Positions 30,058 through 63,325 of a stretch of DNA of 64,000 nucleotides are shown one piece after another. A model generated the notes under the pieces. It was given only the letters and a program-made list of their open reading frames with translations, had not been told where the DNA came from and did no database searches. The position numbers and the translations under genes are program-made. The DNA is from Cladorhizidae sp. MBARI D1340-BT2 (Eukaryota > Porifera > Demospongiae > Poecilosclerida > Cladorhizidae). Each line of letters begins with the position of its first letter. The first letter of the stretch is position 1. The stretch spans positions 248,001-312,000 of the forward strand of contig JAQNBH010000252.1 of the NCBI GenBank assembly GCA_028752905.1, in the 5' to 3' direction.

Positions 30058-30810
30058 AATTTTGGGGGAGATAGGTAATTTTTTAATAAAAAAACCAAAC
30101 AAGTGGGATACCACTTTATAGCTCCATAGATTCTGTAAACTTTATGATATGTACTTGATATATAGTTCAGAAGATAGCGCTCTCTGTGTGCTTTATTTCG
30201 ATACTAAAATATTTTTCATGCTTATAACTATAGCCAAGTTACTGGAACTAAAGTGGAGGGACCTCAAAACCTGAATGCCTTATTTTGCCGCATAAATATC
30301 TCCAGATTGCCAAGTGCTAGAGAGTTGAAATTAACACCAGTGACTAGAAGAAGCCCTACTCTATGCAATAAGCAATTTGATGAGGCGCTAAAACGTAAGT
30401 ACGTGGTCAAATGCTCGGTTGTAAAATGAATTTTGTTAAAATTCCATAAAATTCATTTTCCAACTGTGCGCTAGCTTGACCAGTACTTACATTTTAGTGC
30501 CTTATCAAAAATAGAGTAGGGCTTTCTCTAACCAGTGTTGCTAATTTCAACTCTCCATCACTTGGCAATCTGAAGATATTTATGTGGCAAAATCAGGCAT
30601 AGAGGTTTTGAGGCTCCCTCCACTTTATTTCCAGTAACTTGCCTATAGTTATCATATGAAAAATATTTTAGTATCAAAGCGAGGAGAGACCAATCTTTTG
30701 AGCTATAATTATATCAAGTCCATACCATGAAGTTTACAGAATCTATGGCGCTATAAAGTGGTAACCACAAGTTTGTTTTTATAATTTAAAAATGCACCTA
30801 TCACCCCTAA
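30058..30810. mobile_element. Foldback/MITE element, full palindrome
   Basis: Two arms of about 310 bp in inverted orientation with a short spacer near 30400-30490. Left arm landmarks: GGGGGAGATAGGT, ACCACTTTATAGC, 'TAGAGAGTTGAAATTA', 'GAAGCCCTACTCTATG'. The right arm gives their reverse complements, ending GTGGTAACCACAAG, then CACCTATCACCCC. It has no coding content. Other copies are at 13700 (half), 32925 (half) and 62653 (full). Confidence 0.92.
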
Positions 30811-34379: not shown

Positions 34380-36450
34380 GATTCTAGTGAACCTCAGTCT
34401 GATCTGGATCATTCTGAAATCAGTACCACTCTGGAAAGCTGACATGAAGATGAAGTTCCTATAGTTAATGAATGCTCAAGTGGAAGTGCCGAAGGACCAG
34501 AATCGTATGTTTATTATCTTCTATTGAAGATGCTGATTGTTTAATACATGAGCTTTCTAGTGGTGCTAGATACTCTTTCTTATGTCACCACGATGTACAA
34601 TTGCTTAGTGTCCTTACTGGCACCTTATTACATAGCTATCACCAAAAGTTTAACATATTGTGTCTCAGTAAATATCCTTGGCTAGTCTACAGTTCTAAGG
34701 TAGATGGTGTATTTTGTCTGCCTTGTGCTATGTTTCTTCCATCTAACCAACGTAAAGATAAAGGTTACCTGGTAATTAAGCCTTTTTCTAACTGGATCAA
34801 GATGAGTTGCAATTTGGGTAATCATGCAAAGCTTCAATACCATTGTGATTGTTTGCAGCAAGCAGATGCACAATTGAAAATCCAGTATCACGAGTAGATG
34901 TAATGACAAGCACTGCTGTTCAAAAGGAAATTAGTGAAAAAAGGCAATACTGAGGCAAATTGTTTGAGCAATTTTTTTTTAGGCAAACAAGGTATTGCAT
35001 TTCGTGGAAAGTTAGAGGAAGTTGCATCGTCAAAGAATCCTGGAAACTTTTTAGCAATGCTAAAATCTTTTGCGGGGACAGACAGTATTTTATATGAGCA
35101 TCTTTATTGTACCAAGGCAAAGAATGCAACACACTTATCACCAAGGACTCAAAATGTAATTATTAATATTATAGGCTATGATATGATTCTTGCCAAAACA
35201 ATATCTGAGATAAAAGAAGCAAAATATTTTTTCGTTCTAGCTGATGAGGTTTCATGTCACAATGTAGAGCATCTGCACATATTCCTTCACTTTGTTGATG
35301 GCCATGGTGACATTCGAGAAGAGTTAAGAGTTTGTTTCATTTGTAAAACTTGAGAGAGTCCGAGCAGCTGATGTGTACCAAATACCATTATACAGACCTT
35401 GGAGGGGCTTGGCTTATCACTGAATGATTTGCGAGGGAAAGGGTATGATGGGGCCTCAATGATGAGTGGGGAGATAGCTGGTGTGCAGGCATTACTTCGA
35501 GAGAAGCATCCCAAGGCATTCTACATCCATTGTGCAAGTCATTCCATAATCTGGCTATCATAAGTTCCTGTTCTGTTCCACCTATAAGGAACTGTGTAGA
35601 TCAGATAAAAGGTTTCACATTATGGATTAAGGATTCAGCTAAAAGAGAGGGCCTCCTTAAAGCAATCATTCAGAAGAGGTCTCAGATTGGCACAAAGCAG
35701 TTTTCAATAATCAACGTTTGCATTACTCGATGGGTAGAGAACATCAATGGCTGGGAGCGTTTCTGTCTATATCATCCTTTTCTAATTGAAATGTGTGAGA
35801 TAGTACTCTATGGAAATAGTGAATTTCTGAACTTTAAAGATGGTTGGACTACTGATGATAAGAAAAATGCTCTTGCATACATGAAAACGTTGGAGTCCTT
35901 TGCATTTTTGTATTCCCTAGTCACTCTCTTTAGGTCTATTAAAGAAGCTGTTGTTAAATTACAAGGAAAGTGCCAAGACCTTACCTCTGGAGTGACAATA
36001 AGTACAAGACTGTTGCAATGAATTTAAAAGAGAGAGAGCAGATGTTGATAATTTTTCACAGCGTATCTTTCGGCATTGTTCTAGATGGGCAGTTCAGTCC
36101 AATATAACTATTTCGATGCCACGCACAACTCAGCGACAGCAGCATTGTCTGAATCCACTAATTCAGTTGAGGATTATTTTAAATGGGCTGTAGTCATCCC
36201 TTTTCTTGACCAAATTATACATCAAGATTTACTAAGCATACCAACCAGGTAGCTTCATTGCAATACCTATTGCCCATCCATACCACTACTTCATCCTTTG
36301 TTAATATTGAACCTGCTGTTACTTTCTATTCTGAATATCTACCAAATGTGAGTATACTTGATGAAGAGTTTCATCGCTGGAAGTCAAGGTGGCTACAAAT
36401 TTAACCAGATGAGCGTCCTCAAACTCTGAGTGAATCGCTTAAACTCTGCT
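34380..36450 (+). pseudogene. hAT transposase, TTF-finger/ZMYM1-like type
   Basis: An exon begins after ATTCAG at 34380 ('DSSEPQSDLDHSEISTTLES', then TGA). The TTF-type zinc-finger part reads 'SSGARYSFLCHHDVQ', 'KFNILCLSKYPWLVYSSKVD' and 'GVFCLPCAMFLPS' with its Cys residues. After stops come 'FFVLADEVSCHNVEHLHIFL' (catalytic Asp region), 'LRGKGYDGASMMSGEIAGVQ', 'FYIHCASHSIIWLS' and 'INVCITRWVENINGW', all hAT core segments. The C-terminal dimerisation region is blurred, with 'LSALALILEWIDTVA' near 36570. At least five stops or shifts break it. Introns may account for one or two of them. Confidence 0.8.
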
Positions 36451-37305: not shown

Positions 37306-39180
37306 TATGGCTAAATATTGTGATACAGATAAAGTGCTGTGTATGTTGGATGATGAGATTGATGATGATTTTGATGGCTTCATAGTGAAGAATTATAGTG
37401 AGGAGGATGAGGATGTTGGAGTTTGTGATGTAGCTGATAGTGTTAGTGATGGCGTAGTTGGTGGTGTGTGTAGCTAAAGTGGTAGCAGTTCTGGTGCCAG
37501 TACTTCTTGTTCCAGTTCTTCCATCTCCTTTAGCCAGGCATCTGGGTGCACTATTGATATGGAAGGAAAAGAGCCTTTGGAGTTTGCTCAGCTTTTTATG
37601 GACGACAATATCCTGAGGAGAGTTGTGAACGAAAAAATGTTGTATGCTGAGCAATTCATGGCTGGAAATAAAGACTTACCTCTTCGATCAAGAGTCAGAG
37701 AGTGGAAAAGGTGCTCAGTCAGTGAAATGGTGAAGTTTCTTGCCCTTTATTGCCATGAGCACGGATAATAAGCATCGGATTGAGGACTATTGGTGCAAGA
37801 AATGGCCTTTCACCAGGTCATGCTTCTCCTCTATCATGGCGGGAGACCGATTTTGTCTCGCGCTTCTTTCACCTAAATGATGGAGAGAAGATGTACCTAG
37901 GGGTCGGCCAGGATATGATGCCCTGTTCAAAATACGGCCACTTATGGAGCATTTACTAGATAAATTCAAAACCTTTTACCAGCTGGGGAGAGAAATATCA
38001 GTCAATGAATCAATGATAGGCTTCAAGGGACAGCTGTGGTTTATCGCTATCAAGTGGGGCATGAAAGCCTATGTCCTGGCAGACGGCTCCAGTGGATATA
38101 TGTACATTTGGAAGCTCTATACTGGTGAGGAAACTGTATATATATATACACACAAAATAGCCATGTAGAAAAGTACTATAATATTATATATAATAAATAT
38201 AATTCACTCATAGTCTTTCCCCCCCCCCCCCCACTTTTTTCTTTCTTTTTTTACTTCCTTCCTGCTCTTCTTCATTATCCCCTTTTTCCTTCCCACTTTT
38301 TTTCTTTTCAGTTCTTGTTCTTTTTGGGGGGTCTCCCAGAGAAATGAGAGCCTCTCCGCTACAGAACAACACATGACATGGTGATGAAGCTAGTAGAAGG
38401 GATGGAGAATAAAGGACACCATTTGTACACAAGTCCAGACTTGTTCCTCACCCTAAAAAAGTAGTGGCTTCGGTGCATGTGGTGCAGTTCGGGTGAACAG
38501 GAGGGGGGGACCTGCATGTATCAAGGCCAAAGACAAAATGAAAAAGGTTGACATCAAGTATATAAGTACAAATGGTGTCCTTGCCTTGAAATGGATGGAC
38601 AAGAAAGCTGTGACCATTCTGAGTACTATCCACGATGATAGCACTATAGCAAAGAGGAAGAGGACAAGGCTGTCAGCAACTGGCATGGAGGAGGTCATAA
38701 AGCCAACAGCCATTGTCAAGTACAATAGTCACATGGGTGGGGTTGACAAATCCAATCAGCTGATGAGTTACTATACCTTCCAACATAGGACACAGAAATG
38801 GTGGAAACGGGCAGCTTTTCATCTCCTCAACCTGGCATTGGTAAATGCATACATGATATATAAAGGGACACCTTCGACTGGCCGAAGAGTAACACACCAG
38901 TCCTTCTTAGTGAAGGTTGCTTTTGGATTTCTTCTGGAGGCAGGCCTGACAGAAGCTCAGCTTGAAGTGTCCATCCTTCACAATCATCCAGTGGCTGAAC
39001 CAGCCAGACTTATAGGAAGGCACTACCTTCCCCCAAATAGCAATGGCAAAAGGTCCCTGTGTGCTTGCTACCTGTGCAGCAGCAAAAAAGGAAGTCAGAA
39101 CTTTATTTAGATGCAAGATTTGTAAAGACGCTTTATGTATTACACCTGGCTTTGAACTATACCTCACAAAAGTTAGTCCT
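37306..39180 (+). pseudogene. piggyBac transposase (pseudogene or intron-containing)
   Basis: The ATG at 37306 gives an acidic N-terminus ('MLDDEIDDDFDGFIVKNYSE'), then stop TAG-free restart frames 'LPLRSRVREWKRCSVSEMVK', 'FVSRFFHLNDGEKMY', 'REISVNESMIGFKGQLWF' (first catalytic Asp replaced or just outside: E-S-M-I), 'KAYVLADGSSGYMYIWKLYT' (Asp in LADG) and a probable intron 38125-38311. Then come 'HDMVMKLVEGMENKGHHLYT', 'MGGVDKSNQLMSYYTFQHRT' (Asp in GGVD) and 'WWKRAAFHLLNLALVNAYMI'. The C-terminus has a cysteine cluster 'CACYLC' and, after a frameshift, 'RCKICKDALCITPGFELY'. The longest open part is 38493-39110, 205 codons. Loss of 'DNFY' residues after HHLYT and several stops suggest decay. 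TTAATTAA lies just upstream at 37281-37288. Confidence 0.85.
38218..38340. repeat. Poly-C and pyrimidine-rich tract
   Basis: About 14 C residues, then T/C-rich DNA, which serves as the polypyrimidine stretch before the TTTTCAG acceptor of the probable piggyBac intron. Confidence 0.8.
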
Positions 39181-46171: not shown

Positions 46172-46636
46172 GCAGAGCAACGTAAACGTGACCGTGCTAC
46201 TGAAAACCGAAAGCGACTCGAAGGTGAGCTTCATACTGATGATCAAAGAACCAGTTTAATCTGAGTTTTTCAATAGTGGAGTTGGAGAGCTCTCAAAGAG
46301 TCCTTGATAGAAGCAACTTTCAGAGAGCTCTCAAAGTGTCGTTGATCTGAAGGAAGAACTTTCAGAGAGCTCTCAAAGTGTCATTGATCTGAAGGAAGAA
46401 CTTTCAGAGAGCTCTCAAAGTGTTCATTGATCTGAAAGAGCAACTTTCAAAGAACTCTCAAAGTATCGTTGATCTGAAGAAGCAACTTTTAGAGAGCTCT
46501 CAAAGTGTCACTGATCTGAAGGAAGAACTTTCAGAGAGCTCTCAAAATGTCGTTGATCTGAAGGAGCAAGTTTCGGAGAACTCTCACACTATCACTGATC
46601 TGAAGAAGGACTTGATTCACTATGAATCAAGATATG
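46172..46636 (+). CDS. Two exons of a coiled-coil protein with 14-residue repeats
   Basis: Exon 46172-46223 (acceptor ATATAG, donor AAG/GTGAGC) encodes AEQRKRDRATENRKRLE plus one base. Exon 46277-46636 (acceptor CAATAG, donor ATG/GTAAGC) joins in phase (G+TG = Val) and encodes tandem units of 42 nt, for example LSESSQSVIDLKEE, that is two heptads each with Leu/Val at a and d positions. About eight units are present. Indels near 46310 and 46424 shift the frame, so the copy may be a pseudogene or carry sequence errors. The final units are in frame to 'DLIHYESRY'. The start and end of the gene were not found. A long parallel coiled coil is the likely structure. The function is unknown. Confidence 0.6.
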
Positions 46637-47120: not shown

Positions 47121-48010
47121 TTATATACTGCAAGCCCATGGGCAATTAAAACCTGAGATTTGTATTGTGGGTGTCCAATCCATATCTTCTGATCGAAATA
47201 CAACTCTGGGAATCTTGATGCACTTGTCATGGTACCACTCCCCACATTTTGAACATTCTGCCATCCTACTTTTGTTCCATGGCATTCGGCAGACACAGTA
47301 CAGTTCGATTGTTTGAAATGGTTCGATTGCCGGAGAGAGGTTTGTAACAGTTTTACCAGGAAAAGGTAGCATTTTACGTGACTGGAAACAATTTACGAGG
47401 TGACATCTCATTTTGGAGATATCCTTGGCTGGATCTTCACCATAACAGAGGGCTACTGCACAAGCAATAGCAAAAACTCCACAGTCATTACCATTGGTCT
47501 GCTGCTGAATGTTCATAAACCTTGCTGTGATCGTTTTATTCCTTGAAAATACAAGTGCAGCTATCTGTTCAGAAGTTGATTGAGGCAAACGATTGTAAAG
47601 ACTATCATATACCTTAACTTCACTATTATCTTCCTTGATCAGCTCAATGCAGATCCAGTGGTTGTTTTGACTGTTCAAAATCTATACTGCATGACTCTGA
47701 ATAACGTCAGTGCTAAGATTAGAGACCACAGTAGTAGCTTGCAATCCATTGATGGAGAGAAGTACTTTTTTGAGAAGTTTCTGAGAGGCATACATATGGG
47801 AATCCACTAACCAGTTTCCATTAAGAATCATGTCACAATCTTCTACTAGGTCTGGGATCCACATTGGTGGGACTGTTATATCAGGGTAGTGATCAACAAT
47901 AACTAGTCCAGGCTTTCTATCATCACTGACAGAACTATCTAGAAGTTCAACATCATCGTAATTTTTTTGGTCTTTAGTAGCTCTACTGACAGTACCACCC
48001 ACAACACTAC
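47121..48010 (-). pseudogene. Ulp1-like protease and PHD-like finger
   Basis: 'NGNWLVDSHMYASQKLLKKV' and 'SINGLQATTVVSNLS' open the Ulp1 fold. After a frame change, 'NSQNNHWICIELIKEDNSEV' (His in NHW), 'KVYDSLYNRLPQSTSEQIAA' (Asp in YDS) and 'QQQTNGNDCGVFAIACAVAL' (Gln, and nucleophile Cys in NDCG) give the full catalytic set. The last open stretch 47678-47121 (185 codons) continues to a PHD finger: CVC, ECSKC, EWYHDKC, and then 'SEDMDW' without the final CxxC; 'NCPWAC' lies further on. So the finger is incomplete, either by mutation or because the last part is out of frame. Confidence 0.8.
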
Positions 48011-51463: not shown

Positions 51464-52904
51464 TTCTCCTTCCTACAACCTCTTCCCACGTGGGAGCAAA
51501 CTTGATTCGATCTGATTGGTGATCAGGAATTGGCTTTCGCGATCCTAGGATTGAGCAAATTCCAGGTTTGCGGATAACATATATATTGTAATTGGCGAGA
51601 TGCAACAATTGCCTTCAAGCAGTATATAGAAAGGCAGTGCCACAAGTTTTCTGTGGAGTAGGTACTGACACAATGGTCCGGGCATTGTGGTAATAAATAT
51701 TATTAACCCTGTGCATTTATACTTTGAGACATCAGCAAGACGTTGTCTCAATGTTTACAAAAATGCCTATGATCAAATTTTTTTACAAAATATAATGCTC
51801 TCTTGCTTTATGGTTAGTGTAAGTAGATCTTCATTATCTTTCATGCAATTAGAGATAGTTCTTGTAGCATTGGTTGCACACATCACAAGAATCAATATTT
51901 GCATAATACTTACAGGTCCCCAGCATCCTTCTCTGTATACTCAAGTCATTATTCTCAATAGCTCATCCAAACACTGATGATGGATGTAGTGTTCTATTTT
52001 TTACAAGCTAGCATGCTTAATTATAATTTTTTTTACTGCTTATATCTTGGAATCATCTTCCCTCATAAACTTCAGCAACTTATAAGAATTCCTATCACTA
52101 TGGTAGTTGTGGCTGCTGATTCCAAATCCCTGTCTAGGAAAGAATTCGAGGAATGATGGTTTAGTAGCCATTGCTAAGAACTGCTACATGTCACTTAAAT
52201 TGCATGTTGTTGTGCAGGTAGCTAATACTACACAGAATGCTTGTGATACTGCATCTGTTTATGCTGCTTGTAGTAAACTATTGCATTTCCATATTCATAA
52301 CTACAAGTAATAATTACCTACCTGACTGTATGCTTGCATAAAGATATAAATATTATCCAGTTAGCAATTCCATTCTTATTTACATAGCATTAGAGATTCA
52401 AGCCTTCATGGACTATCCTTGTCACAACTGTCAAGCAAAAATAACAGGGCACCCGACCTTCAAAATTAAACCACTGCTACGAAAGGAACTAAGTCGTCTG
52501 GAATTATCCTAACACTGTCTTTTTCAAAAAGGTTGCTTGGGCCAAAATATTAACTTGGTTGTGAGGCTCGTTATGGAAAGGCAAGGATCCAGTTCTAGTA
52601 GAAGCACTAGAAACATGTTAAGCAATATTGCCAGCCATATTAAAACACAAACACAGAATCTCCGACTACTTGTACCATTCATTGCGCTGCCTGGCACCAG
52701 AATGTTAGCAGTTGAATCGAAATGGACTTCCCTGGCTGCTGGGGATCCACTCTCGAGAGCCTGAACTGAAGCCAAGACCACCAAGATCACCATAATTTTT
52801 GGTATTCAGTTATTTATCACAACCTTTTTGAAATAGAAAGCCAAAGTTTGTACTTGTCATCAATAGGAGCCTCTAGCCCTAGATACCTACTACTCTAATG
52901 CCCT
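51464..52904. other. No gene recognised
   Basis: Flank of the Ginger-like element. A CpG-containing stretch at 52530-52790 is open on both strands but matches nothing I know. Confidence 0.35.
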
Positions 52905-53008
52905 AGCAGTTTTAGAACTTCTATAACTTTTGACAAACATCAGATGAAGAATTGCCAAGAAATATATATATACCATGAGATGTGTTTTTTAACTCTCATT
53001 TTTCTCAG

Positions 53009-53091
53009 CTAATGTTCATTGTGTATCAGTGTCAAGTTAAACAGAAACTTGGAGCTCTGGAGACTGATAATATATTTAGGATGTATGTGGT
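53009..53091 (+). other. Juxtamembrane-like exon, copy A
   Basis: After TTTCTCAG the sequence reads LMFIVYQCQVKQKLGALETD. Hydrophobic residues followed by basic ones resemble the inner end of a membrane helix. The donor is unclear. Confidence 0.4.
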
Positions 53092-53270
53092 GAAAAATGG
53101 AAATCATTGACTTCTTTTAATATCATGTAATTCTGACAGTTTGTCCACCTGTTCTTTATATATGTACGCACTTTATTATTTAGAGGACCACGATACAGCT
53201 GTGATTTATTATCCCTACATATATAGTATGAATGCATTCTTGATTTATATTTTGTTTACTGTAACTTTAG

Positions 53271-53436
53271 ACCCTGGATTGCCTACAAGTGCTGGTACAA
53301 ATATTGGGACATCAGAGGTCTTCCATTCAAAAGATCCATAGAGGTGGATACTCTATTGTTGTATTTTCTTGATTTAATGAATGTTTTATTTTTGAGACTC
53401 CTTCCTTCCTTGATGAGCAAGCCAGTGAGAATCTCG
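53271..53436 (+). pseudogene. Linker exon and tyrosine exon, copy A (decayed)
   Basis: The linker exon begins at 53271 (acceptor TTTAG), 'DPGLPTSAGTNIGTSE', and a 2-nt insertion shifts the frame at about 53309. The 40-nt exon 53397-53436 reads TPSFLDEQASENL plus one base. The Tyr of the other copies is Ser here. Splice sites and length are kept. Confidence 0.6.
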
Positions 53437-53749
53437 GTAGGTGTAACTTAGTTTGGAATACTGGATTTATTCAATCTGTTTATTTTTCCATGTGGATAAT
53501 TTTTACACAAATTGACTATTTTTCTCAGCTCATGTTCAAAGATGTCAGTCAAGAAAGTAGGATTACTCTGACAATTTTTACATATGCTCTACAAAAATAT
53601 TGTTTAAATGGGCAAGCACTCTTTCAAAACACAATGGGAAAAGTAGGTCCTAAAACTACACAACTCTAGTATGGCACCAAACATTGATTGAATTAGCTTA
53701 GTATGCACACAGTATAAACGCATTCTAAAATGTCCCATTTTTTATCCAG

Positions 53750-53862
53750 GATTGCCTACAAATGATGTTCCAACATTTGGCCTCTCAGGAGATGGTCTTC
53801 CAGCCATACATGTGAGCCAATAGCTCTATCCTTGACTGGTGAGCAAGCCTATGAAATTCCTG
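53750..53862 (+). pseudogene. Linker and tyrosine exon, copy A' (intron lost)
   Basis: The linker 53750-53811 reads 'GLPTNDVPTFGLSGDGLPAI' with H, then a GTGAGC donor. Only about 12 bp separate it from SLTGEQAYEIP (ending 53862, donor G/GTATGT). The intron has been shortened to a length that cannot splice, so this copy is probably dead. Confidence 0.55.
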
Positions 53863-54349
53863 GTATGTTTGGAGTACTGTTTAGATGAGGTGTTTATGAC
53901 AAAATTCTCTCGGAACAAATAAAGAAATTTTGTAATGTCATTGTCCTAATAATGTATAGGATAGCTTGATTAGAACATCTGTGAGATTTACATCAATATG
54001 AATACATGCTGAGAAATATGTCATATGAAAGATTGTGTCTATTGATAACCTATTTTTCTCAGATCATCTCACAAACATTAAATTTGCACTTCAGTTTGCA
54101 TAGGAACATAGTCAGCACCTTCCACATTACAAGTATCCACTATGCAATTTTCTCTGATGACTGGATGCTTGTAGCGACCGCCCAGTGCATCATAGTATGT
54201 GACAGATAGCAAAGATAGAAGGAAAGTTAGCAATAAAAATCCATTGGTTGACTTTGTTGAACCTGAAGTCGACTACTTGATAGTTTTAATCAATGAGGGG
54301 ATCAATAATGCCTTAGCTAAAGTAGAGGCACCAGCTAGACATTAAAATA

Positions 54350-54467
54350 ACCAGCAAATCCTCACCTAGGGCTAACTAACCTCTAACTTTATTGCAATGG
54401 TAACACAACCAGCAAATCCTCACCTAGAGCTAACTAACCTCTATCTTCATTGCAATGGTAACACAGG
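54350..54467. repeat. 58-bp tandem duplication
   Basis: AACCAGCAAATCCTCACCTA occurs at about 54350 and 54409. Both are followed by GAGCTAACTAACCTCTA or GGGCTAACTAACCTCTA and end ATTGCAATGGTAACACA. Confidence 0.95.
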
Positions 54468-54989
54468 GTGTGCATTTTACAATCAACATTCAAATTTCAT
54501 AATTCAAGCACCCACCTTAGATGTTCAAGGCGAGTGAGTAGTTCGACTCCCTTTATTTCCCTTAGGGTAGGTATGTATCTTTATAGCCAGGTATTGCACT
54601 GGTACTCTCTATATTAAATGGAGGTTGATATAAAAAAATCATGTCTTAGCTCTAACTTATTTAAGCAGTTTCTTAGCATCCTGATGGTGGTTTCTTCCTC
54701 AAAAAGGAATTCCAGCTTACCATGATACTTCACTATGATAGTGCCTGGTGGACATTAAAAAAAATCCAGGAAATTTATTTTAAGTCTATCCATAACAAAC
54801 TAAAATTGTTAAAGAACATAAACACAATAATTTGAATTGTATGTGTGGAGCTAATCTGAGAGCTGAATCAGCAGCTACATGCTCTAGCCTCCTACTGCTC
54901 TACAGCTGTAGCATTTTAGAACTTGTATAATTTTTTCCAACATTCTGATGAAGAAGTTCCGATAAATATAGTGTATAAGATGTAGTCAG

Positions 54990-55055
54990 CTTGTGTTCAT
55001 TGTGTATTGGTGTAAAGTTAAAACAGCTCTGGGCAGAGAGTGTGTTACAATGGAG
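54990..55055 (+). other. Juxtamembrane-like exon, copy B
   Basis: A 66-nt exon with clean borders (AGTCAG, GAG/GTAGGT) encoding LVFIVYWCKVKTALGRECVT-ME. It is homologous to copy A. It would place the end of a membrane helix (LVFIVYWC) before a KVK stop-transfer. Confidence 0.5.
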
Positions 55056-55232
55056 GTAGGTTAAAGTTGGAAGACATTCATCTCCTTTCAAAGTCTTATA
55101 ATATTGACAGTTTTTCCACTTATTCTTTATAAATGCACTGTACTTTGTTGATTATTGTGCCACCAAGGATAAGCTCTGATTTATTGTCCCTACATAGTAT
55201 GAATACATTCTTGATATATACTCAAACTCTAG

Positions 55233-55407
55233 ATCCTGGATTGCCTATAAGTGGTGGTCCAAAACTTAGGACATCAGGTCTTCCATCACCACCATCCAGA
55301 CATGTGAGCCAATACTCTATCGTAGTGTTTGCTTGCTTAATTTTACAGTGATTGTTTTAACTTTCAGACTCAATCCTTTTCTGGTGAACAAGTCTATGAA
55401 AATCCTG
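55233..55407 (+). CDS. Linker exon and YENP tyrosine exon, copy B (best preserved)
   Basis: Linker exon 55233-55303 (71 nt, acceptor CTCTAG, donor CAT/GTGAGC, phase 1 to 0) encodes DPGLPISGGPKLRTSGLPSP and PSRH. Tyrosine exon 55368-55407 (40 nt, acceptor TTTCAG, donor CTG/GTATGT, phase 0 to 1) encodes TQSFSGEQVYENP plus one base. The phases fit each other in either order, so the cassette can be repeated or skipped without frame loss. YENP fits the pYxN consensus bound by Grb2-type SH2 domains, which is inference. The sequence is proline/serine rich and likely cytoplasmic. The parent gene is not identified. Confidence 0.6.
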
Positions 55408-56714
55408 GTATGTGAATACTGAGAGGTTCATGTTATTTTACATATTTTAGATTTTAGGTACTGTTAACAAATTAATTCCCTTGACATAAGTAGCCTAATA
55501 CTCTACAAGTCTAGCTTATTTAAAACACATGTTTTTACGTCAATATGATGAACACATGCCGAGAATGAAAGGTTTGTGTCTCTTCAGTCTGTGTATGCAA
55601 CATAATTGTGCTTTGTAAGTAACAAATGCTCACAATAGAGTGTGCTCTGATGTATGATTTGAATGGGTGTGTGTAGTGATCGCCCAGTGCATAATATCCT
55701 GTGACAAATAACAATGAAAGGAGACAAGTAGGGATGTAGATACATTGGTAGTGTGGCAGAGCCAGAGAGACAAGTGCATTAGTACAATACTAACCAGCTG
55801 TATGTGGGCATGTAGTAAAAATTAGTTAGCTACTGGCATGCTATAACATGTATAATACCATGTATTTACCTGTAGTCTCAGTAATGTATGATTATTCAAA
55901 TTGTATGCATGTCAGAACAGTAGTCATAACAGCAGTCGGAGTAACTTGTGTGAGAACAGTTGAGTTGTTTTGTCTTTTGCTGTGTCTTCTATATCTTATT
56001 TATTTATCCTCTTAATATATTTAAACCTATCTGAACTCTTAACACAGTCTAGCTAGTTGTCTAGAATTGTACTAAGTTGAACATTTATTGAAGTTGAATA
56101 GCTATAGCAGTAGCCACTTGTTGAATAGACTGAACTCGGTTGGTTACAGGTAGACTTGGCTGAAACTTAAGTCGACCACTTTGAAGTTTTAAAGAAAGAG
56201 AGGATCAAGAACAACACTACTTAAGCGTTATTCATCTGGTAGTCATGATGACATTCACCTTCATTATAAATTTAACCCTCCCATCACCAGAGTGATTAAT
56301 TAAAAAATACTACAAATGAATGCAAGGATTGTGTTGCAAGTTAATGTCTGATGGAGAGATGGACAATTACTTTTAGCATGATTACCAATACAGACAAAAA
56401 TTTAATTCTTAGCATTATTGCAAGCCTAGATCACATTGCTTTAGGTATTCTACTACTCCAAGTGCAGGCCTAACACTATACACTGATCTGTAAATTATTG
56501 ATGTCATAAAATTGTATTGCTTGTACTGTTATAGGTAGAAATATTGAAGCTTACAGATAGCAAAGGCTTGGAGGAGAAACCTCCTCGATATTGAGCACGA
56601 CGATCATTTCCAGTTTAGCAAGGCCGTTATCCGTGATGATTATTTCCAGTTTAGCAAACCTTTCATACCTAGAGTATCCAAATGGAACTTAAACATCCAT
56701 TTTTAAGATATCAG
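55408..56714. other. Intron-like, no further exon supported
   Basis: AT-rich. A 20-bp direct repeat GATTATTTCCAGTTTAGCAA (and GATCATTTCCAGTTTAGCAA) occurs at about 56603-56655. Confidence 0.4.
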
Positions 56715-56854
56715 AAGCTTTACCTGATCCCAAGGAAGCATATCCATTGTGGGCTGCTGTGCTTCTCCCATGCCTTTTACTGTCACTCTTCCCTTCTAAT
56801 TTCAATTCTCGTTATTCTGCTGTTTCAGAAGCACACTTTGACTTTTCTCTCTGA
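56715..56854 (+). CDS. Alternative C-terminal exon, copy 1
   Basis: Acceptor ATCAG, phase 1, so it fits the end of the 40-nt tyrosine exon. Reads EALPDPKEAYPLW, then a hydrophobic stretch 'AAVLLPCLLLSLFP' and stops at TGA 56852-56854. The hydrophobic part is unlike the other two terminal exons and may follow loss of the original stop. Confidence 0.5.
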
Positions 56855-57074
56855 TTTTTTTTCCTTTATTTATCCAGGCAAAAATCAGCAAGCTGCTCTG
56901 CTGGAAAAAATGTCTGTGCATGTAGCTATCATTTTAGTATGGACATGCACACAAGAATCTGCTCATATACACATGACCACCATTTTCCCATTAATCACAA
57001 TTCCATAGCTAGATAACGCTGAATCTGTTGGCCTCCAGGAGAGCTAGCATTGTATTTTTCATCAGTAGACTTCC

Positions 57075-57335
57075 TTCTTTGGTCCTAACCTGGATCAGTG
57101 CAGCTACTAATACAGCTGTGGTTTGTAGCTAAAGTTTTCTTGCAGAACTCTAGAGGCAAGTGCTGTACTGAAAACAATAAAAGAATGTGCTAACCTAAGC
57201 TGTGTATGCTTGGAAAGTTAGTGTTTATTTAATCTGAGGATTATTTTCTTTCTGTGGATCCTGCCTAGTACAATGCAGTAGTTAAACTACAAATGAGGTT
57301 GTAGCTATAGCTTTCTTACAGCTATCTTAAGTGCT
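57075..57335. repeat. ~180-bp tandem duplication
   Basis: GGTCCTAACCTGGATCAGTG at about 57080 resembles GGATCCTGCCTAGTACAATG at about 57256. Both run on to 'TTGTAGCTA-AG-TTTCTT' and CAG. Confidence 0.65.
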
Positions 57336-57467
57336 CCATTCTATATACTATGTCACACTTTGTCTGTTTTAAGCTTCTAGACCGCTAAGGCATTCTTTAA
57401 GGTTGAGTTAGAGGCATAGTATTGTGGTGCTCCCTTCCTTGTAGAAACTTGGACAGATCGACTATAG

Positions 57468-57526
57468 AAGCTTTACCTGAGCCTAAGGAAGTGTCTGAAT
57501 GGTGGATGATGCCGAGCAGTAGCTAG
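57468..57526 (+). CDS. Alternative C-terminal exon, copy 2
   Basis: Acceptor ACTATAG, phase 1. Encodes EALPEPKEVSEWWMMPSSS and a TAG stop. Homologous to copies 1 and 3, including the sequence after the stop (GCTAGCAAT). Joined to a tyrosine exon it would give YENPEALPEPKE. Confidence 0.55.
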
Positions 57527-58309
57527 CAATAAATAATTAACTACAGTTATAATTGATTTTGAACACAACTAACTTTCAATGTGTAGCTAGCTATCATTAT
57601 TATCTTGCTAGATAGAGCTAAAGTATGATAGTAAGGGAATTCATAAACTGTCTTTCAGAATTAATTGGCAAAAAATATCTATGTTTTGTCTGCTGATCGA
57701 GTTGATGCTGGTTGTAGCTAATACCTGATTTATTGTCCAAGTTTCTTCATGCATGAGCCTCCAATCTCTTCTCTCAAACATTATACATTAGGACGGTTAA
57801 AATACAAAGGTTGTACAAGGTAATGTTATTTCTCACACATGCATATACATACACACGTCAAACACACAAATCCTAAAGCCAAACTGAGCATTCATGGCCA
57901 ACTACTTGGTTGACTCGGTGTGGACAGAGGCCTGGTTGCTATTTTGGGAAGGAATTCCTGTGAAATGAAAATGTATTCATTATACCCCAATATAAAATCT
58001 ATAATTATTTCTATAATGATTTCAGTTAACTATTTTGAGATTTCAGTACAGACCATATTTATACCAGTGGCTTCCAGAGTAAACCCACAGAATATTGAAA
58101 CATATTAGCTTCTTTATAAGCATAGTATGTTTTTAGCCTGAGTAGCAATTCTCACTTGTCTATGCAGCCAGTTCTTCCTGCAACTAGGTTGTTTTCTCTT
58201 ACAATTCCAAATTTAATAAGACTAGTAGGAGGAGGAGTTCTTATTTTTTACAGGTGAACCTACAATTGAATACATACATACATACATATATATGGTTTTC
58301 CAAGTTTTC

Positions 58310-60050
58310 CGTTCAGCTCCCCAGGTTTGCAACAACTATGGTCCTGTCTGCTCCCATATCAATGCGCATTCTGCATTCTCTCTGGCCTACCCCGCCTTCT
58401 ACATATAGACCTGGTTGTCTGATGGCTGTTATTATAGACTCAGTCATTTCACTGTGTTTTTCCATCCTAACTTCGATCTCATACCCAGAATTGTCACATT
58501 TCGACCTTCTGCTTAAACATGTAGACACAAAGTTAACCCTATCCCCAGACTTATCTTGAGGCTTTCCCGGAGTGCTACTGTAAAACATGTTATTTAAGTC
58601 ACCCATACACTCACTGTACTTTGGGTTATGGTGTCTTTCCCTGCTGTCATGGTTGACGTCGCAACAATGAGTGCCAGTTCCGGAGATGACTGTCTTCATT
58701 CCATTGATTTCTTGACCAGTCTCCCGGGCAACTCCTCAGTTTCGTGCAGGGCAGTCATCTTTTGCGGAATTTAATATTCATGGCTTGTCGCTCTGTCATG
58801 AAGTTGGCGAATTCCAGGAACATCTCAGGTTTCCATGCTCTAACATGGTTTGCATCCAGCGAGTAAAAGGAGAGAAATTTTCCTGTTGCCACTGTCTTGC
58901 CATCCTCTTTTATTGTATTACAGTTTTCCATGTGAACATCTGCCAAACTTAGTAATACTCAAAGAATTTTTGTAGCTGCATCACCATCTTTCCTCAGAAC
59001 GACCAGAACTCTCACTCACAGGCTTCTTTGCAATATCAGAGCTCCTTCAGCAAGGCCATTTTCAGCAAATTGTAGTCTACCTTAGCCTCCTCCATTACAG
59101 ATGTTGTGTAAGCTATGGATGCGGTTCCCATCACTAGAGGACCATGTGGCTTGCCCATTTATCCTTGTTGATCTCTGCTGTGGAAAGCATGTCTTCAAAG
59201 TTTCGGAGGTAGGATACAGGCTGTTCCTTGTCCGTCTATGGAGCAATTTTATCTCCCAGCTTCCATTTTCTATCTCTGTCTCGTCATCTGTCGTCACTAT
59301 GCCACATATAGTTTTGGTTTCGTGCTGAAACTTGATTTGCATTAGAAGTGTTCTCTTTTGTGCTGTCCTTCGCTTTGAGTTATTTTGTTCGGCTTTCTTC
59401 GGCTTCTTTATGTTCAATCCTTCTGCTCTCCCTTTTCACTTCCATTCTCTGATTCGACAATCTTCTGCTTCACTTTCTCTGGTTCGATGTTCGTCTGCTA
59501 CTCTTTCTCTTGTTCAACGTTCTTCCACTTCTCTTTCTCTGGTTCGACGTTCTTCCACATCTTTTTCTCTGATTCGATAATCTCCTACTTCTCTTTCTCT
59601 TTGTTCGACCTTTTTCCACTTCTCTTTCTCTGGTTCAATGTTCTTCCACTTCTCTTTCTCTTGTTCGACGTTCTTCCACTTCTCTTTCTCTTGTTCGACG
59701 TTCTTCCGCTTCTCTTTCTCTTGGTTCGACCTTTTTCCACTTCTCTTTCTCTGATTCGACAATATTCTGCTTCACTTTCTCTGGTTCGATGTTCTTCCAC
59801 TTCTCTTTCTCTTGTTCAACATTCTTCCACTACTCTTTCTCTGGTTCAACATTCTCCCGCTTATCTTTCTCAGGTTCGACGTTCCACCGCTTCCCTTTCT
59901 CTGTTTCGACGTTCTTCCACTACTCTATCTCTGGTTCAACGTCAATGTTTTTCTGCTTCTCTTTCTCTGGTTCGGCATTCTTCCTCTTCTCTACCTTCAA
60001 TTCTTCTGTTCTCCTCCATAGTCAGGATTAATGTCTGAATGGCCTCCAGT
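58310..60050 (-). mobile_element. Third gypsy-class fragment: gag and protease
   Basis: Minus strand. Near 60035-60010 it reads MEENRRIEGREEE, then a long Glu/Lys/Arg-rich repeat (59990-59430), then 'VSYLRNFEDMLSTAEINKDK' at about 59225-59170, comparable to 'EAYLRNFEQTL' in the first element's gag. The far end, near 58400-58310, holds 'CRMRIDMGADRTIVVANL', a retropepsin active site with DTG changed to DMG. The open stretches 58946-58755 and 58699-58313 lie between. No RT, integrase or LTR follows, so the copy is truncated. Confidence 0.7.
59430..59990 (-). repeat. 30-bp minisatellite inside gag
   Basis: About 18 units of TTCTTCCACTTCTCTTTCTC followed by TGGTTCGACG on the plus strand. On the minus strand one frame gives EKEKWKNVEQ-type decapeptides and another RTREREVEE. 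Units of 29 or 31 bp break the frame. The long plus-strand frame (59385-60038) rich in Phe and Ser is an artefact. Confidence 0.9.
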
Positions 60051-60535
60051 GGGTTTGGGAATTCTCTTGTAGTCCTCGTCATTTACGGTCAATGGCTTGA
60101 CTAGCCCTTCCTGATATCCACATTTGTGTCCTCATTGTCGGTCATCTGAACTTGCTCTCTTTGGAGTTTCTCAGTTTACTCCCCTCGCTCTGTTCTGTCT
60201 GCTCTCTCAGACTTGTCATTTGCCTTGTTACTTGATGTAATTTCTTGCATAAAATGGGCGGCAAAATACAAAAATACACAATATGTAAATAATATGCAAA
60301 CACTATGCACAATATCAAACAATATACACACAGAAATGCTGAAAACGTGCTCTCACTTCTCCGAATCAACCAAGCTGAGCCAAGTGCTGGCCACAGTTCC
60401 AATTATCCACTTAGCCAAACTCCAGCTGTCTTCTATAAGTTTCTGGAAAAAATAAGATAGAGCAACACACTAGCTCTCTTACTAACCAGTCCATTTTGAG
60501 GCCTGACACTTCCCTTGTAGAGAAACAGAGTCTAG

Positions 60536-60558
60536 AAGATTTGCCCAAGCTTAAATAA
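60536..60558 (+). CDS. Alternative C-terminal exon, copy 3 (very short)
   Basis: Acceptor GTCTAG, phase 1. Encodes EDLPKLK and a TAA stop. The upstream 'CTTCCCTTGTAGA-AAAC' and the downstream ATGGTG/GCTAGCTAGCAAT match copy 2 (57440-57535). Confidence 0.45.
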
Positions 60559-61005
60559 TGGTGAATGGCACCAAGTGCTAGCTAGCAATGAGTTCAATAA
60601 CTGTGTGTGTGGACAAAATATCTCCAGTAGCTATATGTCACAATCTTGTATGCACGCTTACACTACTACTGGAATATGCGGGAAAGGGCGAGGCAATCCT
60701 TGGGCTTGGCCTGAATGGGAATGGTCAGTACTGGAGGGGAACTGGCAGGAACATGGCATAGAAAAGTATATGAAGCTGGTACCTAATTGTCGGTCAAACA
60801 ATACCACTTCATCGCAAGTCAAATATGAAAAATTTCATATAAGAATTATAATTTTGGTTTAGATTTATGACATTAGTTTCCACAAAATCCGATTTTGAAT
60901 TCAAGTTTAAGTACATTTAAATTGAATTGCTAATATATGTCTAGATGGACCCTCTCCAGCTATTTAGGAAAGGCTAATACTAAAACTAGATACTATCACA
61001 CTAAC
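60559..61005. other. No gene recognised
   Basis: Open frame 60575-60862 has a Trp/Gly-rich part ('GNPWAWPEWEWSVLEGNW') with no match that I know. Confidence 0.35.
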
Positions 61006-61123
61006 CTGAGAAGCCTTCCTGGTCCATTTCTGCATCTGAATCTTGATCAATAAACAGCAGCTCTCTGAGAATTCCTAGGTAACTGAAGATGACTATACCT
61101 TCTTCTTCCTCATCAGAATCTTC
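61006..61123 (-). other. Possible minus-strand exon, acidic
   Basis: 118 nt between an acceptor CTTTAG and a donor CAG/GTTAGT. It encodes EDSDEEEEGIVIFSYLGILR and then ELLFIDQDSDAEMDQEGFS, phase 0 to 1, without stop. No neighbouring exon was found on this strand, so it may be a chance frame. Confidence 0.35.
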
Positions 61124-62164
61124 CTAAAGATAGCTATATCACCCCTGGTGACTTAAGTAATGAGGTCATCCTAGTTACTCTCTCATCAATTCGATGATTT
61201 TCTAGACAAGAGATCGTTGGTATTTTTTAAAACATATTTGGCAACATTTTCTGGACCCTATATGCAATCTAGGAGTAGGACATAACAATTGGAAAATTGT
61301 AGCAATCATGCAGTGTTTTATGTGTTTTTTTAACTTGCTCTGCTATATTGTGCTTACAGAGGGTTGGTTAAGGACATGATCAGTGATCTTGCTGGCAGGG
61401 TGGTTCACTGTTGCTAAGCTCTCACTGCTTTTGTGAATCTCATTATTTGGAATCATGCTTCTTTATTTTCTTCACTATTGGCTGAATAAGAAGGTTGGAG
61501 GTGTGAGGCCTGCGACTGTCAGTTTTACCCTAATGAGTTGGCAGGCAAATGTGTATAGGATGTGGGAAGTCATCTTTGAGTACTAACTTCTATGGTCCAT
61601 TTTTATTGTTCTTTTTGTGAGAGGTCCGCACCATGATTTGTTAACCCCATTCATATTGAACATGGTCATCTTGAGATTTGGGTATACCTAAACTGGTTGA
61701 GCTAATGTGCATCAAGCATTAGCTTATGAGGCTATATATGAGCAATCAGGTGCATTGAGAAAAATTTATAGCTTGAGTAGCTCTAGTTATTGTGGATGAG
61801 CAACTCTAGGCCAAATAGAACCTGCATCCCTTTATTTTGTGCCTGCACACCAGAGATGTTTGTATTGTTAATTATATCATACTCTGCGAACATGCTGGTA
61901 GCAATTGCCAGGTTGGCTAATCCATGTTTGTCTGCCCAAGGTTATCACCTGTTACTGTTAGGATAAATCTTTGTTAAATGTATGTTTTATAAGTGATAAA
62001 AAAGGTTTTGTAGAAAAGCTTCCTTACTCATATTAAATATGCAATTGTAAAGCTTGTTCTAAAATTTCTTGTAAACTAGGGTTGATAGGACAACCCGTTG
62101 GGTTTATAGTTACTTATAATTATGTCTTCTACGAATGGATTTTGGTTGATTCATAAATTTAGAG
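61124..62164. other. No gene recognised
   Basis: AT-rich, intron-like. Confidence 0.4.
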
Positions 62165-62325
62165 ACTGGAAAATTTCAGCAAATCTTGTGAGATCAAAAG
62201 GATCTTCTTTGCCACAAGCCTCTGCCGCTGTGAGTCTGTTCTATTCCATTAACTTGCTTATTGATGTTGATAATTTACTCATCAGAGTGAATCCATTTCT
62301 GATGAAGAAGCCTATGAAAATCCTG
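62165..62325 (+). CDS. Linker exon and YENP tyrosine exon, copy C
   Basis: Linker exon 62165-62229 (acceptor TTAGAG, donor GCT/GTGAGT, phase 1 to 0) encodes DWKISANLVRSKGSSLPQAS and AA. After a 56-bp intron, the 40-nt exon 62286-62325 (acceptor ATCAG, donor CTG/GTATGT, phase 0 to 1) encodes SESISDEEAYENP plus one base. Length, phases and the YENP motif equal copy B, 7 kb upstream, while the introns have diverged. That contrast suggests coding constraint. Confidence 0.6.
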
Positions 62326-62652: not shown

Positions 62653-63325
62653 AGGGGACAATGGCATATTTTTCCTTTTTTTAATTTTTACTTATGGTTA
62701 CCACTTTAGAGCTCCGTAAATTCTGTATGTAAACTTCATTGTATGGACTTCATATATAGCTTAATTGATAGGTCTCTCTGTGGGCTCTCTTTTGATACTA
62801 AATTGTTTTTATAGGTATAACTATAGCCAAGTTACTAGACCTAAAGTAGAGGGAACTTCAAAACCTGAATGCCTGAATTGGCCGCATAAATATATCTCCA
62901 GATTGCAAAGTGCTAAAGATTTGAAATTAGCACCAGTGGCTAGAGGAAGCTCTACTCTATTCAACGAGTGTTTTCATTAGGTGTTAAAATGTAAGTACAT
63001 GGTCAAGCGCGTAGGTGAAATGTAGCTTCCTCTAGCCACTGGTGCTAATTTCAAACCTTTAGCACTTTGCAATCTGGAGATATTTTGTGGCCAATTTAGG
63101 CATTCAGGTTTTACGGTTCCCTCCACTCAAGGTATAGTAACGTGGCTATAGATATATCTATGAAAAATATTTTAGTAATAAAAGAGAGCACATAGAGAGA
63201 CCTATCTTTTGAGGTATATATTAAAGCCATACATTAAGTTTACAGAATCTATGGAGCTCTAAAATGGTAACCATAAGTAAAAGGGAATTTTTTAAAAAAA
63301 ATACCGTTGCCCCCCCCCCCCCCCC
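62653..63325. mobile_element. Foldback/MITE element, full palindrome, second copy
   Basis: Left arm from GAGGGGACAATGGCATA, GGTTACCACTTTAGAGCTCC, 'AAGCTCTACTCTATTCAACG'. Right arm from about 63020 in reverse to GGAGCTCTAAAATGGTAACC and ATACCGTTGCCCC. It ends in a run of 17 C residues. Spacer near 62970-63020. Confidence 0.92.

Follow-up and report, generated by a model that had tools for sequence, protein, structure and literature searches.

Phase-symmetric candidate tyrosine cassettes and a Death-like exon within a large mid-chromosome repeat of a cladorhizid sponge genome

The long arm of the mouse Y chromosome carries large ampliconic arrays, in which units that exceed 100 kb and contain genes recur many times. 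The 64-kb stretch of sponge DNA analysed here (the window) belongs to a repeat that resembles these arrays in the size, gene content and repetition of its units, whereas in the sponge the units occupy at least five large chromosomes, lie near their middles and show a single orientation switch on one of them (C18). The gene family carried by this repeat can also be compared with Death-domain adaptors (PF00531), since it includes a C-terminal domain of matching length that aligns to the Pfam profile and a coiled coil upstream. Unlike these adaptors, its Pfam score stays below the cut-off, tyrosine cassettes lie between the two domains and the copy number is high. The third comparison is with the pYxN docking motifs of Grb2-type SH2 domains, as found in APP, where the binding of Shc and Grb2 requires the phosphorylated tyrosine in YENPTY (PMC2723102). 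Two of the exons in the window (units 3 and 4) share the YENP core with this motif, but their NP is not followed by TY within the exon; unit 2 has YEIP instead, and unit 1 lacks a tyrosine. In listings from a literature collection with few subscription journals, no paper was recognised as describing the exon family or the array. An earlier note on this DNA had suggested a family of receptors whose tail would be a modular series of tyrosine motifs; its structural observation was sound while the function was over-read, and what stands out more than the tyrosine motif is the exon family in its array setting.

Tyrosine units, linkers and cassette symmetry

The earlier note had placed four 40-nt exons of common size and phase 0 to 1 in this region, each behind a linker exon of phase 1 to 0, and all four exons are present:

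53271 to 53343, plus strand: linker 1, 73 nt, lacking one base, with an in-frame stop
53397 to 53436, plus strand: unit 1, 40 nt, TPSFLDEQASENL, with Ser for Tyr and without tyrosine
53750 to 53811, plus strand: linker 2, 62 nt, phase 1 to 0
53823 to 53862, plus strand: unit 2, 40 nt, ALSLTGEQAYEIP, YEIP, acceptor deleted and no AG in the window
55233 to 55303, plus strand: linker 3, 71 nt, phase 1 to 0
55368 to 55407, plus strand: unit 3, 40 nt, TQSFSGEQVYENP, YENP, both AG and GT present
62165 to 62229, plus strand: linker 4, 65 nt, phase 1 to 0, its start being one of two possible
62286 to 62325, plus strand: unit 4, 40 nt, SESISDEEAYENP, YENP, both AG and GT present

A GT directly follows every unit on its 3′ side and the phase 0 to 1 is common to the four. 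The pattern S-x-E-[QE]-[AV]-Y-E-N-P, which had been attributed to all of them, was found in units 3 and 4 but not in units 1 and 2, so YENP occurs in two of the four; the same two carry the Y-x-N core of a Grb2-type SH2 motif, and the other two do not. When back-translated, the pattern matched the window at two places, compared to no match in 100 shuffles. A profile built from the four units revealed no further unit within the window that was convincing (three weak matches, E of 0.34 or higher). Past the window end, four further units were located within 7 kb (68394, of 41 nt, 69048, 70520 and 70851 in window numbering, the last without a donor), and the profile also detected additional 40-nt units in fetched copies. 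The acceptor missing from unit 2 was kept at C13:15.26 Mb and in two older copies, L016 and L018, and its deletion was common to all 11 near-identical loci compared, eight of which had been picked by the unit 1 probe and not by unit 2.

The claim of a phase 1 to 0 linker before each unit held for linkers 2, 3 and 4, whose lengths all leave a remainder of 2 on division by three, but not for linker 1 with its 73 nt and its stop. At linker 4, an alternative AG two bases upstream is incompatible with the phase. The counterpart of linker 1 at C13:15.26 Mb measures 74 nt and is in phase. Since alignments showed that the extra base is also missing from older C15 copies, the lesion is older than the youngest copies. 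A linker together with its 40-nt exon is a symmetric cassette of phase 1 to 1: the border phases were equal for linkers 2 to 4 with units 2 to 4 and for linker 1 at C13:15.26 Mb, while the window's own linker 1 does not fit the phase. The earlier note's proposal that such pairs can be added or skipped was supported to this extent: duplication has produced phase-symmetric cassettes, which splicing would be able to include or omit.

The similarity of the units extended into their surroundings. The flanks are alike at the DNA level (52865 to 53451 against 54870 to 55423), and the region 51579 to 54880 shares two similar blocks, of 72% and 65%, with 66565 to 70161. Because the flanks resemble each other too, the units are duplicates and not chance likenesses. 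What was duplicated was genomic DNA together with its introns, in keeping with the exon duplication of which the earlier note had spoken.

Coil and Death-like exons and the state of the window copy

We consider, with moderate confidence, that the host gene family most likely encodes a cytosolic adaptor composed of a coil, variable Y-E-[N/I/D]-P cassettes and a Death-like C-terminal end. This predicted order of coil, cassettes and Death-like domain rests on the order of the exons and on their common phase 1 borders, and the three parts presumably form one transcript. The exons outside the cassettes are as follows:

46176 to 46223, plus strand: candidate 48-nt exon, phase 1 to 1, QRKRDRATENRKRLE, read by eye
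46277 to 46636, plus strand: coiled-coil exon of 42-nt repeats, phase 1 to 1, frame-shifted here
65303 to 65692 in window numbering (L028:1303-1692), past the window end: Death-like last exon, 129 aa

The frame of the candidate 48-nt exon is also open at C13:15.26 Mb, where it reads QCKRDLATEKRKRLE. The coil exon was open across 279 nt in the old copy L018, and identical frame shifts were present in all four young copies compared (the window, C3, C15 and C18). At C13:15.26 Mb, an open coil exon (a 165-aa frame) is followed by unit 1, by unit 2 with its acceptor, by a degenerate unit, TQPFTLGQTGECR, and by TQHFSGEQAYEDP. Neither unit 4 nor a Death exon was found there in the 20 kb fetched, which counts against the adaptor model.

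Searches with the Death-like exon gave nearly whole-profile matches to Pfam Death (PF00531) for two copies, L046 at C13:14.49 Mb (E=0.0057, 17.2 bits) and L017 (E=0.018, 15.6 bits), both below the curated cut-off of 22.6 bits. The exon of the window family, L047 and L048 had no Pfam Death match, another point against the model. A single candidate, not significant, was returned from the protein collection, no meaningful match came from PDB sequences and the only NCBIfam match was to CDC48 (E=0.16). In the old copy L017, the Death exon stays open only with entry in phase 1, which is also the end phase of the coil exon and of the 40-nt exons; entry of the window-family exon in this phase led to immediate stops.

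The relative order of the two exons was evaluated for 25 Death exons listed on C15 beyond 26.7 Mb and on C18 beyond 29.8 Mb. For 14 of them, a listed coil exon of the same orientation lies upstream at a distance of 10.0-19.3 kb, compared to a random expectation with a mean of 1.97 and a maximum of 7 in 2000 trials, the copies being related and so not independent. The reverse order on the same strand never occurred (0/25). The adaptor model is weakened by the remaining 11, without a listed coil upstream, and by 4 of the 25 for which a coil lies within 25 kb on the other strand.

The gene copy in the window, a recently amplified one, is a pseudogene without read-through at this locus, owing to the frame shifts of the coil, the deletion in linker 1, the loss of the exon 2 acceptor and the damage to the phase of entry into the Death exon. 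Damage at the Death exon start was present in the young copies L028, L026 and L015. Old copies bear lesions of their own, a stop in exon 2 of L016 and a damaged donor after exon 3 in L018, and these also speak against the adaptor model.

Related exons across the genome and the mid-chromosome repeat

A genome search for the 40-nt exon pattern had been suggested by the earlier note. Outside this gene copy, relatives of its exons number in the hundreds, many of them in open frame. One cassette exon pattern with the Tyr codon left free gave 425 exact matches genome-wide and none with the reversed control. Unit 3 with its splice sites, allowing up to three mismatches, gave 394 matches, those listed being exact, and again none with the reversed control. 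For longer probes the numbers are lower bounds drawn from lists that favour the best matches: at least 197 matches for the coil exon (150 of 2044 first-look candidates scored), at least 150 for the Death exon (150 of 917 candidates scored) and at least 40 at 92% identity or more for an 851-bp cassette block (40 of 2631 candidates scored). Between 18.39 and 22.68 Mb of C13, Death exons form same-strand pairs about 17 kb apart, such as 20199215/20216236 and 19469662/19486784, and this spacing points to a tandem unit of smaller size.

The whole window is part of a larger duplicated segment:

1 to 64000, no strand assigned: slice of the large segment, about 99% identical to C18:27182806-27246800

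Large parts of the window are also about 98-99% identical to C3 and C15. The segment was mapped at no fewer than 73 places, on C3 (3), C13 (7), C14 (5), C15 (34) and C18 (24), merged from exact copies of two probes (the best 40 of 1845 and the best 40 of 876 candidates) and from 53 Death exon rows assigned to the window family. These chromosomes are each 38-51 Mb long, and the mapped places therefore lie near their middles. Among gaps between same-strand neighbours, 25 of 53 measured 165-189 kb and the remainder ranged from 56 to 321 kb, a width due in part to incomplete copy lists. C18 has 14 plus-strand copies at 24.73-27.37 Mb and, after a single orientation switch, 10 minus-strand copies at 27.65-29.50 Mb; this switch offers a landmark at which to test for a centromere. 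The strand of the C15 copies changes several times. The earlier note had named, as grounds against its own reading, the membership of the units in a non-coding repeat with copies outside gene contexts, and this applies by half: the units do lie in a high-copy repeat, but one that carries the coil and Death exons along. The giant units show how array DNA can carry, and break, a signalling-type gene.

Several other features were observed in and around the segment. At C15:32.10-32.14 Mb (L016-L019), pieces of the window recur as an older, rearranged inverted pair, about 95% alike and adjacent to a young copy. The window holds two long, imperfect, foldback-like palindromes (30065-30810 and 62686-63282), mutually similar and with arms about 80% alike, as well as ORFs of transposon type at 47121-47681 (minus strand, PHD and Ulp1 protease), 38457-39110 (plus strand, DDE_Tnp_1_7) and 34907-35353 (plus strand, DUF4371). 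Scans of the 64 kb for tRNA and Rfam families were empty. At the start of the C14 contig (C14:1-500) stands a long repeat of CCCTAG in place of the more usual CCCTAA.

Constraint on the exons and competing readings

Nei-Gojobori counts of dN/dS for the Death exon, made without a significance test, differed between deep and young branches. The most distant copy (C13:14.49 Mb) gave 0.27-0.49 in six comparisons, namely 0.27 with L017, 0.35 with C13:20.20 Mb, 0.34 with C10:13.3 Mb and 0.47-0.49 with three young copies. L017 gave 0.28 with C13:20.20 Mb and 0.58 with C10, and C13:20.20 Mb gave 0.50 with C10 and 0.49-0.69 with young copies. Values rose to 0.69-0.93 between C10 and young copies and to 1.39, 1.51 and 0.83 between L017 and three young copies, the last set being at odds with the adaptor model. 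This distribution fits constraint in the deeper branches and little of it in the young family. For the cassette exons, no constraint is visible relative to the flanks when the window is compared to C13:15.26 Mb (differences at 15 of 292 sites against 197 of 3210, p=0.61). In the 100 matches listed from C3 to C13:21.67 Mb, obtained with the Tyr codon free in the pattern, TAT was kept throughout, and the codons after it gave YEDP (3), YDNP (1) and YDIP (4) besides two main types. As two amplified types dominate, the retention of TAT is only a hint of constraint.

It is possible, though doubtful, that every member of the family is dead or decaying, its exons being fossils in giant segmental repeats and the open frames reflecting young copies instead of selection. 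The broken young family, cassette exons conserved no better than their flanks and the many copies in mid-chromosome arrays would all fit such a history. It accounts less well for a Death exon dN/dS near 0.3 in several comparisons, for the copies found away from the arrays (C11:6.4 Mb and C13:3.4, 7.1, 7.5 and 11.0 Mb) and for the few stops, present in only 3 of the coil matches listed and, by our count, in 33 of the 150 Death exon matches scored, both lists favouring the best matches. A mobile element carrying the exons as its own coding part would explain the high copy number, the near-identity and the number of cassette-block candidates at first look (2631); since introns and intergenic flanks are kept over at least 64 kb and the recurring same-strand spacing fits array duplication better than insertion, we regard it as highly improbable.

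The receptor family of the earlier note, taken as a transmembrane one with an ectodomain and a membrane exon in the 5′ part, is also improbable, although less so than the mobile element. Tyrosine cassettes beside a Death-like domain could make a cytoplasmic tail. However, no ectodomain, membrane segment or other receptor domain appeared in the chosen ORFs scanned, and the neighbours that fit the phase scheme are coiled-coil and Death-like exons, the coiled coil being the next exon upstream in phase. Pfam scans of the 20 chosen ORFs returned PHD, Ulp1 protease, DUF4371, transposase or nothing, together with weak coiled-coil-type matches and one weak MSL2-CXC match.

According to the favoured adaptor model, the coiled coil would mediate self-association, the linkers and Y-E-[N/I/D]-P cassettes would offer a variable number of candidate phosphotyrosine docking sites and the Death-like domain would support homotypic assembly. 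By analogy with APP, the candidate cassettes might be phosphorylated, bind SH2 proteins and signal, with YENP cassettes recruiting Grb2-class SH2 proteins and cassette number setting the valency. A border phase of 1 is common to the coil (1 to 1), the cassette (1 to 1) and the Death exon, whose entry has that phase in an older copy, and gain or skipping of cassettes would therefore alter the number of motifs and leave the frame intact. The window pseudogene was copied along with the larger segment that forms the mid-chromosome arrays. If open copies are expressed, the family would be a clear case of phase-symmetric cassettes multiplying candidate docking tyrosines beside a Death-like domain. 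A bolder version, in which an adaptor family of hundreds of copies is still active, giant units, often of about 165-189 kb, make up central arrays on several chromosomes and the turnover of these arrays reshuffles YENP, YEIP and YEDP cassettes into a fast-evolving signalling or recognition repertoire in centromere-like DNA, is speculative and in our judgement unlikely. Besides the coil exon described above, a second subfamily of coil exons, 82% identical and with open 151-aa frames, was observed within the same contig in the opposite orientation, on the minus strand at C169:133797, 186326 and 219993, and at many other listed places.
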